From Parahoeflea halophila (GTDB lineage Bacteria > Pseudomonadota > Alphaproteobacteria > Rhizobiales > Rhizobiaceae): DNA of 64,000 bases. Positions 19,100-23,072 of the stretch are shown here, piece after piece. The notes under the pieces are model-generated. The model made no database searches. It was given only the letters and a program-made list of their open reading frames with translations, and had not been told where the DNA came from. The stretch is taken from positions 186,001 through 250,000 of the forward strand of contig NZ_OCPC01000002.1 of NCBI RefSeq assembly GCF_900220985.1, read 5' to 3'. Numbering within the stretch: the stretch's first letter is position 1; the number at the start of each line of letters is the position of its first letter. A program made the position numbers and the translations under genes.

Positions 19100-19513
19100 T
19101 CACGCCGCGGCAAGCTTACCCAACCCGATCCCCAACGCCGCCGTGTCGGTGAAGACCTGGTAGCGGACGATCTTGCCGTCGCGTAACGTAAACAAGTTGA
19201 CCGTTTCGGTGCGCACCGTGCGCGCCGTCTCCTTCACAGTCCATTCGCCCTTGAGCACCGTGATCACGGTGTCGCCTGCGACATGGACCGCAAGCGGTTC
19301 GACCGTGTCGATCACCAGGTGATCGCCCACGGTCGCCACGAATTTTTCGAACCCGTCGAAACCGGCCCAGTCCCCGGCCCAGGGCAGAAGCCCCTCCGGC
19401 GCCGGGTAATGCACCTCGATTTCGTCGGAGACGACGCCGCGCAAGGCCGCCCTGTCGCCCGCCTTCAGCGCGGCGTAGTAGCGGTCCAGCGTTTCGCGCA
19501 CGGCGTCGCTCAT
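19100..19513 (-). CDS. SnoaL-like (NTF2-fold) protein in the suc operon
   Basis: A 137-residue protein starting at ATG 19513. The pattern VRETLDRYYAALKAGDRAALRGVVSDEIEVHYP, with a later FDGFEKFV and a closing LRDGKIVRYQVFTDT, is characteristic of the cone-shaped NTF2/SnoaL fold found in small hydrolases, isomerases and binding proteins. The ligand cannot be told. It lies 28 bases after sucD and about 70 before sucA on the same strand, so it is probably expressed with them. It is not a known component of either enzyme complex. Confidence 0.85.
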   Translation of the reverse strand: MSDAVRETLDRYYAALKAGDRAALRGVVSDEIEVHYPAPEGLLPWAGDWAGFDGFEKFVATVGDHLVIDTVEPLAVHVAGDTVITVLKGEWTVKETARTVRTETVNLFTLRDGKIVRYQVFTDTAALGIGLGKLAAA

Positions 19514-19541: not shown

Positions 19542-20444
19542 TTATCCCTTGAGGACTTCAACCAGTGTCTTGCCAAGACGTGCAGGCGATGGCGAGACGC
19601 GGATGCCTGCGGCTTCCATCGCCTTGATCTTGTCTTCGGCGCCGCCCTTGCCGCCCGAGATCACCGCGCCGGCATGGCCCATGGTGCGTCCGGGAGGTGC
19701 CGTGCGGCCGGCGATGAAGCCGGCCATCGGCTTCTTGCGGCCCTTCTTGGCCTGCTCGATCAGCCATTCGGCCGCATCTTCCTCGGCCGATCCGCCGATT
19801 TCGCCGATCATGATGATCGATTCGGTTTCCGGATCGTCGAGATAGAGATCGAGAATGTCGATGAACTCGGTGCCCTTGACCGGGTCGCCGCCGATGCCGA
19901 CGGCGCTCGACTGGCCAAGGCCTTCATTGGTGGTCTGGAACACCGCCTCGTAGGTCAGCGTGCCCGAACGCGACAGAATGCCAACCGAGCCCTTCTTGAA
20001 GATGTTGCCCGGCATGATGCCGATCTTGCACTCGTCCGGCGTCATCACGCCGGGGCAGTTGGGGCCGATCAGCCGCGACTTCGACTTGTCGAGCACGGCC
20101 TTGGCGCGGATCATGTCGGACACCGGAATGCCTTCGGTGATGCAGACGATCAGTTCGATCTCGGCTTCGACGGCTTCGATGATGGCAGCTGCGGCACCTG
20201 CCGGCGGCACGTAGATCACCGAGGCATTGGCGCCGGTCTCGGCCTTGCCCTCGGCAACCGAGGCGAAGATCGGCAGCTTCTCGCCGCCGGAACCTTCCCA
20301 GGTCGAACCGCCCTTCTTCGGGTGAATGCCGCCAACCATCTTGGTGCCGTGATAGGCCAGCGCCTGCTCGGTATGGAAGGTGCCGGTCTTGCCGGTGAGA
20401 CCCTGAACCAGGACCTTGGTGTCTTTGTTGATCAGAATGGACAT
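19542..20444 (-). CDS. sucD: Succinate--CoA ligase alpha subunit
   Basis: The 300-residue subunit binds CoA and carries the phosphorylated histidine, about His257 in [10 protein letters not shown]. The start [21 protein letters not shown] is canonical. The CoA/NAD-fold region and the LIGPNCPG motif are intact. AAGG is eight bases before ATG 20444. Unusually, sucD is not next to sucC: about 1.4 kb separate them, holding a toxin-antitoxin pair, a decayed copy of the sucD start and a small secreted protein gene. The enzyme remains full length. Confidence 0.97.
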
Positions 20445-20462
20445 GTCATCAGCCTTGTAAGT

Positions 20463-20882
20463 CTAAGCGAGAAAGTCTTCGAGGAAAGGATTGCAGACAC
20501 GGACACTTCCGTAGGCCTGCCCGTGATTGAGATCTTCGCTGTAGACGATCTCGAGATCGGCGCGCTGCGCCGCAACCAGAATGAGACCGTCCCAGTGAGA
20601 GATCGAATGACGATGTGAGATTTCCATGGCGCGCACGACATCGACCGGCGACACCGCGACCACATTGTCGTTCTGCAGGGTCTGTATCCACTGCATCGCC
20701 GCTTCCGCACCATAGGCGAGCTTGCGCCGGAGCACCTGATAGAGCTCCATCATCACCTGGGTCGAGGTTGTCACCTCCCGGGTCTGCATCAGCCGCCGCG
20801 CCAGATCCCGCTTGGTTGCGTCCGCCGCAGTTGAATGGGCGGCATAGGCCACGATGTTGGTGTCAAAGAAGGCCGCGTTCAT
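20463..20882 (-). CDS. PIN-domain toxin (VapC-like)
   Basis: A 139-residue PIN-domain ribonuclease. The acidic active-site set is visible: Asp7 in FFDTNIVAYA, Glu46 in VMMELYQVL, Asp98 in SHWDGLILVAA and Glu116/Asp117 in YSEDLNHG. Such VapC-type toxins cleave RNA when released from their antitoxin. Its start overlaps the antitoxin end by 20 bases, the usual coupling. It ends 18 bases before sucD, so read-through from the toxin-antitoxin promoter could reach sucD. It probably arrived with the antitoxin as one module. Confidence 0.9.
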   Translation of the reverse strand: MNAAFFDTNIVAYAAHSTAADATKRDLARRLMQTREVTTSTQVMMELYQVLRRKLAYGAEAAMQWIQTLQNDNVVAVSPVDVVRAMEISHRHSISHWDGLILVAAQRADLEIVYSEDLNHGQAYGSVRVCNPFLEDFLA

Positions 20883-21147
20883 GCATCACCTCCCCGTACA
20901 ACTCCTCGCGGTCGACCAGAGGTACCTGATCGTCAATCTCCTTGCCGCGGGCTTCGGCGGAGGCGTCGGCCGCATCGAAGACCCGGCCCCAAGCTTCCGC
21001 ACGGCTTGCCTGGTGCGCTTCACGGTTGACCTCGCGCTGAAGAAAACCGCGCACTAGCTCATTCACGCTCGTCCGCCGCATGGCAGCGAGAACCCTTGCC
21101 TTGTCCAGCAAGTCCTCATCGATGGCGAGTGTGATGTTCTTGGTCAT
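20863..21147 (-). CDS. Ribbon-helix-helix antitoxin of the PIN toxin
   Basis: A 94-residue protein. The N-terminal 45 residues (ITLAIDEDLLDKARVLAAMRR then SVNELVRGFLQREV) form a ribbon-helix-helix DNA-binding fold. The C-terminal half is charged and likely disordered until bound to the toxin. ATG at 21147 follows AGAGCG. Upstream lie a consensus-like promoter and a perfect palindrome overlapping the -10 box, fitting autorepression. Overlap with the toxin gene supports assignment as its antitoxin. Confidence 0.88.
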   Translation of the reverse strand: MTKNITLAIDEDLLDKARVLAAMRRTSVNELVRGFLQREVNREAHQASRAEAWGRVFDAADASAEARGKEIDDQVPLVDREELYGEVMHERGLL

Positions 21148-21160
21148 CGCTCTACACAGG

Positions 21161-21199
21161 TTATGTGTTACACATAATACGTGGGCACCGGGAAGTCAA
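21161..21199 (-). promoter_or_regulatory. Toxin-antitoxin promoter with palindromic operator
   Basis: On the minus strand TTGACT (21199-21194) and TATGTG (21176-21171) form -35 and -10 boxes 17 bases apart. A perfect 17-base palindrome, TTATGTGT-T-ACACATAA (21161-21177), covers the -10 box and ends 14 bases before the antitoxin start. This is the expected layout for autoregulation by a ribbon-helix-helix antitoxin. Confidence 0.7.
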
Positions 21200-21238
21200 A
21201 GCCACAAGGCCGTTTGTCTGCGCTTGTAGGGTGCAGGT

Positions 21239-21295
21239 CTAGCCGGTCCGGTCCTGAAGCTGCACCGAGGTGTCTATGCTGATCAGAATGGACAT
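21239..21295 (-). pseudogene. Decayed duplicate of the sucD start
   Basis: Reading from ATG 21295 on the minus strand gives 18 codons, MSILISIDTSVQLQDRTG, then TAG. The real sucD at 20444 begins [18 protein letters not shown]. 43 of 54 bases and 11 of 18 residues agree, and the first 15 bases are identical. Similarity stops two bases upstream of the ATG and at the TAG. This is a relic of the sucD 5' end, left when the toxin-antitoxin module arrived. A retained short leader peptide is a less likely alternative. Confidence 0.75.
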
Positions 21296-21319: not shown

Positions 21320-21874
21320 CTAATGAGCATCCAGAAGATGGATCATGTTGGTGTGAATGATCGCGGGCAGTGGTATTCCTTCAAACCATTCTCTTTGAAC
21401 AACAACATCGGCGTCGAAACGCTTGCTACCCTGTTCAAAGTGAAAGTTCTTACCGATCATTTTTTCGCTGGAGACTGTGGTGATTAAAGTCCCGGTTGGC
21501 ACAATTTTCTCCACTGCCTCAACGACATTCGAGCAATCCGGAATCTGAAGGTTCCCATCCGCCACGAATTGATCCAATGTTCCATGAGAACATTGAACTG
21601 AAATCATATCAGAGTACTTTCGGTACGAGAGTCTGTACTGTGCACCTTCGGTATCTGTAATAATGGCAGCTCCACCCTTACTTTCGATTTTTGGATTGGC
21701 GACCCAAGTCCAGCCCCTATTGATCACCCATGCCTCCATCTCACTAAGCGAATTCTGCACCAAGCAAAGCTCCGCAATATCTTGAATGGGGCAGGCCTCA
21801 ACCGAACTAGCGTTGCCGACACAGCTGGTGCCGGCGAATGCTATTACAGCCAAGATACGCGGGACAATCGACAC
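21320..21874 (-). CDS. Small secreted protein of unknown function downstream of sucC
   Basis: A 184-residue product starting at GTG 21874; the AAGGG in the last sucC codons, eight bases away, serves as its ribosome-binding site, so translation is probably coupled to sucC. The N-terminus is a signal peptide ([19 protein letters not shown]). The mature part has cysteines in EACPIQD, LCLVQN, VQCSHG and PDCSN that may pair. Base composition is less GC-rich than the flanking sucC. No family was recognised. With the sucD relic just downstream, it may be part of the same accretion. Confidence 0.75.
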
Positions 21875-21878
21875 TGTG

Positions 21879-23072
21879 TCAGCCCTTCACGGCAGCCACG
21901 ATTTTCTGGGCTGCGTCGTCGAGATCGTCGGCGGCGATCACGTCGAGGCCGCTTTCGTTGATGATCTTCTTGCCGAGCGCCACATTGGTGCCCTCGAGAC
22001 GGACTACCAGCGGAACCTTCAGGCCCACTTCCTTGACCGCGGCGACCACGCCCTCGGCGATGACGTCACATTTCATGATGCCGCCGAAGATGTTGACGAG
22101 GATCCCCTTCACGGCCGGGTCGGCGGTGATGATCTTGAACGCTGCCGTGACCTTCTCCTTGGACGCGCCGCCGCCGACATCGAGGAAGTTCGCCGGCTCC
22201 TGTCCGTAGAGCTTGATGATGTCCATGGTTGCCATGGCAAGGCCTGCGCCGTTGACCATGCAGCCGATATTGCCGTCGAGCGCGACATAGGCGAGGTCGT
22301 ATTTCGACGCCTCGATTTCCTTCTCGTCCTCTTCGGTCAGGTCCCGAAGTTCCATGATGTCGTCATGGCGGAACAACGCATTGTTGTCGAACGAGACCTT
22401 GGCGTCGAGCACCCGCAGGCGGCCGTTCTTCATCACGATCAGCGGGTTGATCTCGAGCAGCGCCATGTCCTTTTCGACAAACGCCTTGTAGAGGATCGGA
22501 AACAGCTTCTCGCCATCCGCCGCAGCCTCACCCTCGAGCTTCAGCGCCGCGGTAAGCTTGGCCAGATCGGCGGAAGTGACGCCGGCATCCGGGTCGATCG
22601 CCACGGTGATGATCTTCTCCGGCGTTGCCTCGGCCACGGCCTCGATGTCCATTCCGCCCTCGGTCGAAACCACGAAGGCCACCTGGCCGACGGTGCGATC
22701 GACCAGCAGCGAGAGATAGAGTTCGCGCTCGATGTCGGCGCCGTCCTCGATATAGAGGCGGTTGACCTGCTTGCCCGCCTCGCCGGTCTGCTTGGTCACC
22801 AGCGTGTTGCCGAGCATTTCCTTGGCGTGTGCCTTGGCCTCGTCGATCGAGAACGCCAGCCGCACACCGCCCTTGGCGTCCGGCCCCAGCTCCTTGAACT
22901 TGCCCTTGCCGCGTCCGCCAGCATGGATCTGGCTCTTGACCACGTAAAGCGGGCCGGGCAGCGACTTTGCGGCGGCTTCCGCTTCGTCGGCGGAGAAGAT
23001 GGCGACCCCTTCGGCCACCGGCGCGCCAAAACCCTTCAGAAGGGCTTTGGCCTGGTATTCATGGATGTTCAT
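21879..23072 (-). CDS. sucC: Succinate--CoA ligase [ADP-forming] beta subunit
   Basis: The 397-residue subunit carries the ATP-grasp nucleotide-binding domain and, with SucD, makes succinyl-CoA into succinate plus ATP. It begins [22 protein letters not shown] and contains [22 protein letters not shown] and [11 protein letters not shown], all family hallmarks. CAGGAGTTCCC precedes ATG 23072. Length is normal. It follows mdh by 136 bases, with a hairpin in the gap. Confidence 0.97.

Follow-up and report, generated by a model that had tools for sequence, protein, structure and literature searches.

A toxin-antitoxin module at the sucC-sucD junction of alphaproteobacteria and a sucD-start relic that is probably a scar of its movement

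Background

A number of type II toxin-antitoxin modules of Escherichia coli occupied fixed intercistronic positions. Namely, the part of a 2020 review that was used here (PMC7167474) reported mazEF in relA-mazG, the dinB-yafP pair, and ccd in folA-apaH. According to the same part, such modules lay in otherwise undisturbed bicistronic core operons, many strains had an empty site, other inserts were accepted, and the modules decayed, all of which was similar to the locus described below. The present case differed in that two subunits of one TCA-cycle enzyme were split, the address held in several families and in more than one order, and there were gene-start scars and a chimeric antitoxin. It was also stated there that the movement of type II modules between hosts and their integration had not been elucidated, and it is this unsettled question (PMC7167474) on which the scars bear. 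One usual address, empty and filled sites, conflicting trees, the antitoxin chimera and the scars together make the question of movement directly testable.

Judged on titles and abstract openings, none of the openly licensed PMC papers found by searching described a toxin-antitoxin module between sucC and sucD. The locus had known parts in an unusual arrangement, that is, a fixed-address chromosomal toxin-antitoxin module at a new address, kept across a wide taxonomic distance despite horizontal movement. It places a toxin-antitoxin module inside a TCA-cycle operon.

Results

The window was the whole analysed stretch of 64,000 nucleotides from Parahoeflea halophila, which was G000 in our genome and locus numbering. 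The elements of the junction followed each other on the minus strand in the order given here:

21879..23072, minus strand: sucC, the upstream neighbour (open reading frame; by tblastn, copies in relatives were 84-97% identical)
21320..21874, minus strand: orf184 (cargo X), an orphan gene of 184 aa between sucC and the relic (open reading frame; orphan by family and homologue searches)
21225..21295, minus strand: decayed copy of sucD nt 1-71, the relic (56/71 identical; self-comparison E 4e-15)
21193..21200, minus strand: -35-like word TTTGACTT before the module (by eye; starts 95 nt past the relic ATG)
21161..21177, minus strand: perfect palindrome, putative antitoxin operator (unique in the window at up to 3 mismatches)
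20863..21147, minus strand: ribbon-helix-helix (RHH) antitoxin gene, 94 aa (20-bp overlap with the toxin gene; Pfam DUF6364 and RHH_1; kept in 9 junction relatives)
20463..20882, minus strand: PIN toxin gene, 139 aa (PF01850, E 5.8e-11)
20445..20462, minus strand: toxin-sucD spacer of 18 bp with a ribosome-binding-site-like AAGG (similar spacing in the subclade)
19542..20444, minus strand: intact sucD (300-aa open reading frame; nearest relatives 95-98% identical)

The sequence-only reading of this DNA had described an antitoxin and a PIN gene between the relic and the intact sucD, and both were indeed present as reading frames of 94 and 139 aa. In 9 of the 11 loci of the toxin subclade that included the window, sucD was 16-21 bp away from the toxin end, the stop codon being counted. 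The third gene of the insert, orf184, had no match in Pfam, NCBIfam or PHROGs, and a search of 247 genomes of the family found a homologue only in its own genome and no donor. It was a separate accretion outside the relic-to-sucD segment. On the other side of sucD, a SnoaL-like gene (PF12680, E 1e-14) was located at 19100-19507, between sucD and sucA, and a match to it also followed sucD in the Hoeflea genomes G012 and G014.

Four acidic residues of the toxin (D7, E46, D98 and D117), as expected of a PIN toxin, were invariant across 10 toxins. The antitoxin scored 27.7 bits against DUF6364 (cut-off 27.3) and 18.6 bits against RHH_1 (E 0.0018, below the cut-off of 20.5). In nine pairs, dN/dS was 0.06-0.22 for the toxin and 0-0.20 for the antitoxin, and both genes were under purifying selection. 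With up to 3 mismatches, the palindrome had no second match in the window, where 0.01 was expected, and similar words preceded the antitoxin in the other junction loci, as seen by eye. Upstream of the antitoxin on the minus strand, a consensus promoter scan called nothing, and the -35-like word was no exception.

The module was similar to VapBC because a small antitoxin gene overlapped the downstream PIN gene and the acidic residues were conserved. Unlike VapBC, the toxin profile (window 20466-20882) matched a single solved structure, PcrIIC1 (8wmm, E 8e-08), and the antitoxin matched none. We use the label "VapBC-like" as a presumably fitting name that had no family model behind it. PADLOC gave no match that would indicate a role in defence. 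The genome of the window also had two further PIN genes.

In alphaproteobacteria, the usual address of this RHH-PIN family was the sucC-sucD junction, immediately before sucD. When named genomes were scanned with the toxin, 10 loci were obtained, and in 9 of them the pair was located directly before sucD; sucC was upstream in 8 of these 9, while L043 started at a contig end. The exception was a Trueperaceae locus (L044, 38% identical). The closest toxin was that of Hoeflea sp. MAG-81, whose sequence from the antitoxin into sucD was the same as in G012, a genome that belonged, like the window, to Hoeflea. A profile of the 10 toxins produced 57 match rows in 49 of the 397 genomes of the order, and the 16 best of these rows (including the window's own) were all at the junction. 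The address was known for 30 fetched loci, the remaining 27 rows being without a locus: 19 were before sucD, either directly or at 807 bp in L057, and 11 were elsewhere, with the reservation that flanks were about 1.5 kb long and suc genes farther off would be missed. The surroundings of six non-junction loci differed by eye. Two class samples added no further row at the junction (0/21 and 0/6). A phylum sample gave 18 rows, of which the 5 best were at the junction, and one of these was new (G1266, from another family of the class), with further genes between the module and sucD. The event at sucD was not a one-off, since the same family stood before sucD in 28 distinct loci and 25 of the 28 lacked a sucD relic.

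Outside the chromosomal loci, eight plasmid records matched the toxin at 27-37% identity, GenBank phages gave no toxin match, and IMG/VR gave six loci at 39-40% identity (one short piece at 81%). In none of the six viral-contig loci was sucD found near the module copy. An RHH-PIN pair closely akin to those of the junction family was located between the tape-measure and tail-assembly genes of one phage-like contig (L149:1763-2420). It may be that phages are among the sources of such modules.

For comparison of the junction across relatives, sucD was found in 61 genomes, and 58 junctions remained after G007, G050 and G052, which had fragments only, were dropped. A junction was considered empty if the sucC stop and the sucD ATG were no more than 90 bp apart. 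By this definition, 37 junctions were empty, 16 had other inserts, 4 had the module (G000, G012, G014 and G043), and one (L143) was unclassified. In G043, the toxin had an in-frame stop, and the contig ended after a further 3.3 kb in which sucC was absent. Within Hoeflea, 14 of 17 junctions were empty, with 3-4 bp from sucC to sucD (G002 was among the empty ones), and 3 of 17 had the RHH-PIN module; this count leaves out G007 because of its fragmentary sucD. The same core-gene site was therefore occupied in some relatives and empty in others, as in a fixed-address module. Since the junction was uninterrupted in relatives, the data supported an insertion, which was the outcome that the sequence-only reading had proposed to look for. 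Its further statement that the module would be hard to lose was an inference only: 14 Hoeflea junctions were without the module, and two relatives had toxins with an in-frame stop. These stops were seen in the junction toxins L064 (G043) and L057 (G192), one in each, and in L057 about 800 bp separated the toxin from sucD.

Two redundant loci were removed before the trees were built, namely L046, whose 1568 bp did not differ from L037, and L035, the same as L006. In a tree of 60 toxins, the 28 junction copies formed one side of a branch (90/87). When viral and phylum rows were included, which made 78 rows with 29 junction copies, L149 from the phage-like contig fell among the junction toxins, and the unity of the junction-toxin clade was not rejected in this set (p 0.42). 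Hoeflea SucD formed one clade (100/98), with L059 placed elsewhere as a long misread row. Immediately after the toxin of L059, sucD was split into two matches that lay in different frames, through either a frameshift or an assembly error.

The toxins did not follow the hosts. A single clade of Hoeflea toxins was rejected (AU p 7e-07), and they were spread over both deep subclades; a single SucD clade for the hosts of the window-toxin subclade was rejected as well (p 1e-05). Between G000 and G012, dS was 1.08 for the toxin and 0.38 for sucD. Moreover, G012 and G014 were sisters in the SucD tree (99/91) and had toxins from the two deep subclades, that of G014 being sister to the G1266 toxin (99/82). 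Over the 143 bp that started at the operator and took in about 34 antitoxin codons, their DNA differed at 5 positions, and over the following 100 bp it differed at 59. One Hoeflea antitoxin was thus a chimera, whose DNA-binding end was kept while the toxin-binding half was exchanged together with the toxin. Thus, toxin and host histories disagreed, as would be expected if the module had moved between lineages.

The flanks of the window's module may have moved with it. The mdh and sucA trees paired G000 with G002 (100/100 each). The sucC and sucD trees did not, and the pairing was not rejected there (AU p 0.34 and 0.44). G000 and G002 differed at 215 of 3939 positions in mdh and sucA and at 142 of 1341 from sucC nt 151 to sucD nt 300 (Fisher 7e-10), the bounds of this tract being picked post hoc, after inspection; G000 and G011 showed no such rise (411/3939 and 120/1341, p 0.13). 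An AU test on the post hoc tract did not reject G000 with G002 either (p 0.17), and an import tract of G000 was accordingly not significant by any of these three tree tests. G002 was also rejected as a clean sister of G000, since identity was patchy over 40 kb, and a search for a donor locus of the window's segment found none. Overall, these comparisons suggest, without proving it, that the module arrived together with its flanks.

The relic itself was well defined. Reading from 21295 downward on the minus strand, it shared 43 of its first 54 bases with the start of sucD, its ungapped extension covered the 71 positions listed above, and the 19th codon of its frame was TAG. The sequence-only reading had described the same match ending in TAG, and our recount, shuffles and self-comparison bore it out. 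The local alignment score was 41, and the maximum across sets of 200-300 shuffles was 17; when 45 junction regions were compared with themselves, this repeat was recovered at the E value listed, with hits in 0 of 225 shuffled regions. Nothing further was recognisable beyond sucD nt 71. An extension of the relic past nt 71-75 in G000 and G014 was rejected, with 1403 and 1404 of 2000 shuffles as good as the tails. The fit of the window's relic to the sucD of G015 (score 43) was hardly different from its fit to the sucD of its own genome (41).

Similar relics were found in 3 of the 28 distinct module loci (G000, G014 and L043), always upstream of the antitoxin, in a scan where the sucD start of L059 was misplaced. 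None of the 16 other inserts held one, the counts of 3/28 and 0/16 being too small to tie relics to modules. The relic of L043 (score 20, shuffles at most 16) ran to about sucD nt 95 and its start was missing. In both G000 and G014, the -35-like word before the module began at sucD coordinate 95, with 12 deleted G014 bases counted. Because of this shared coordinate, the two relics may come from one event.

G1266 had no sucD relic and carried a different scar. Here, the start of another insert gene was duplicated over 40 nt (E 1e-05), and 10 nt further on the last 33 nt of the sucC end region were repeated (E 4e-06; 0 of 200 shuffles as good). Its locus (L176:1572-4286) contained, between sucC and sucD, a lipoprotein-like gene, the module, the gene-start relic, the copied sucC tail, and a further two small genes. 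A fused scar of this kind would result from a donor piece that extended from the donor's sucC end into the junction. The test that picked up this tail found no such donor tail behind the sucD relics of G000, G014 and L043. In the self-comparison, the other insert L133 showed only a low-complexity repeat at its sucC end.

Discussion

We consider it reasonably probable that the locus carries a functional type II RHH-PIN module that moves horizontally by sucC-sucD recombination and that the relic is the scar of a one-sided event. The toxicity of the PIN protein, its neutralisation by the antitoxin and the recombination route are inferred. In such a mechanism, the sucC-insert-sucD regions of donor and recipient would recombine without an integrase, and the module would land at the same address again and again. 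With both ends joined through homology, the module would simply come to lie between sucC and sucD. A non-homologous join at one end would leave part of a gene start behind, and the relic at 21225-21295 would be such a fragment. If cells that lost the module were poisoned, this would help to retain it. The relic is probably a scar of a module move between lineages. Homology-facilitated illegitimate recombination, as described in the part of PMC6382021 that was used here, is similar because one homologous anchor and one non-homologous join would leave such fragments. It differs in that the process is deduced here from scars alone, with no donor found.

A bolder form of this proposal, possible although somewhat unlikely in our view, regards the junction as an integrase-free docking station. 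Recombinants losing the module would be poisoned and those gaining it would stay alive, so its spread would be biased in one direction, much as with a selfish drive that is coupled to an operon of the TCA cycle. Toxin-antitoxin modules would then ride ordinary core-gene recombination, and the gene-start relics would be leftovers of incoming alleles that were halted before they replaced the module.

It was unlikely that a small element with its own sucD 5' end inserted precisely and restored the gene, leaving the old native start as the relic, like a target-site copy. The relic and the intact start did form direct repeats flanking the module, and the module began at the same sucD coordinate in G000 and G014. 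These features, gene-end direct repeats around the insert and an intact gene, are also those of gene-restoring integrative elements. However, the end concerned here was the 5' end and not the 3' end, the repeat was missing in 25 of the 28 loci, and the relic of L043 without a start represented a different copied piece. Neither a recombinase nor a flanking gene-end repeat across the members was found: orf184, the antitoxin and the toxin were the only genes between sucC and sucD, and none matched a recombinase; the absence of an integrase had already been noted from the sequence. Moreover, the intact sucD start of G014 was the same as that of the module-free G004 over the first 110 nt, with 9 differences in nt 111-150, while the G014 relic fitted other Hoeflea alleles better (44.5 for G002 and 38.5 for its own sucD). 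These data speak against the relic as a displaced native start in G014, although ancestral states could mislead such a comparison. Thus, the earlier view of a gene-restoring insertion was upheld for the insertion itself (14 of 17 sites empty) and was not supported as stated for the restoration, since only 3 of 28 loci had the relic, and its claim that the insert supplied a new sucD 5' end was not borne out in G014.

Quite improbable, in comparison with horizontal movement by recombination, was an old vertical inheritance at the junction with many losses, where the sucD start was locally duplicated and later decayed. All 28 junction toxins were compatible with one clade, and several pairs of near relatives kept the module with synonymous divergence alike in toxin and sucD. 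Nevertheless, this history was disfavoured for Hoeflea by the toxins from both deep subclades within a single SucD clade, and the split hosts of the window-toxin subclade and the excess of toxin dS between G000 and G012 were also against it.

Finally, we regarded it as very improbable that the relic functions as a leader peptide or as a regulatory element, be it for the module or for sucD, and rejected a conserved leader, because, despite the ATG kept with a frame of 18 codons in G000 and 40 in G014, these frames were unlike each other, the L043 copy had no start, and the relic was missing from 25 of 28 module loci and all 16 module-free inserts, where a translated leader would have spoken against the sequence-only reading.

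Apart from the RHH-PIN module, the junction also accepted unrelated small genes, as seen in the 16 other inserts among the 58 junctions, and it was a place where small genes were repeatedly collected. By eye, cupin-like genes between sucC and sucD were alike in L049, L051, L021 and L122, both with and without the module.
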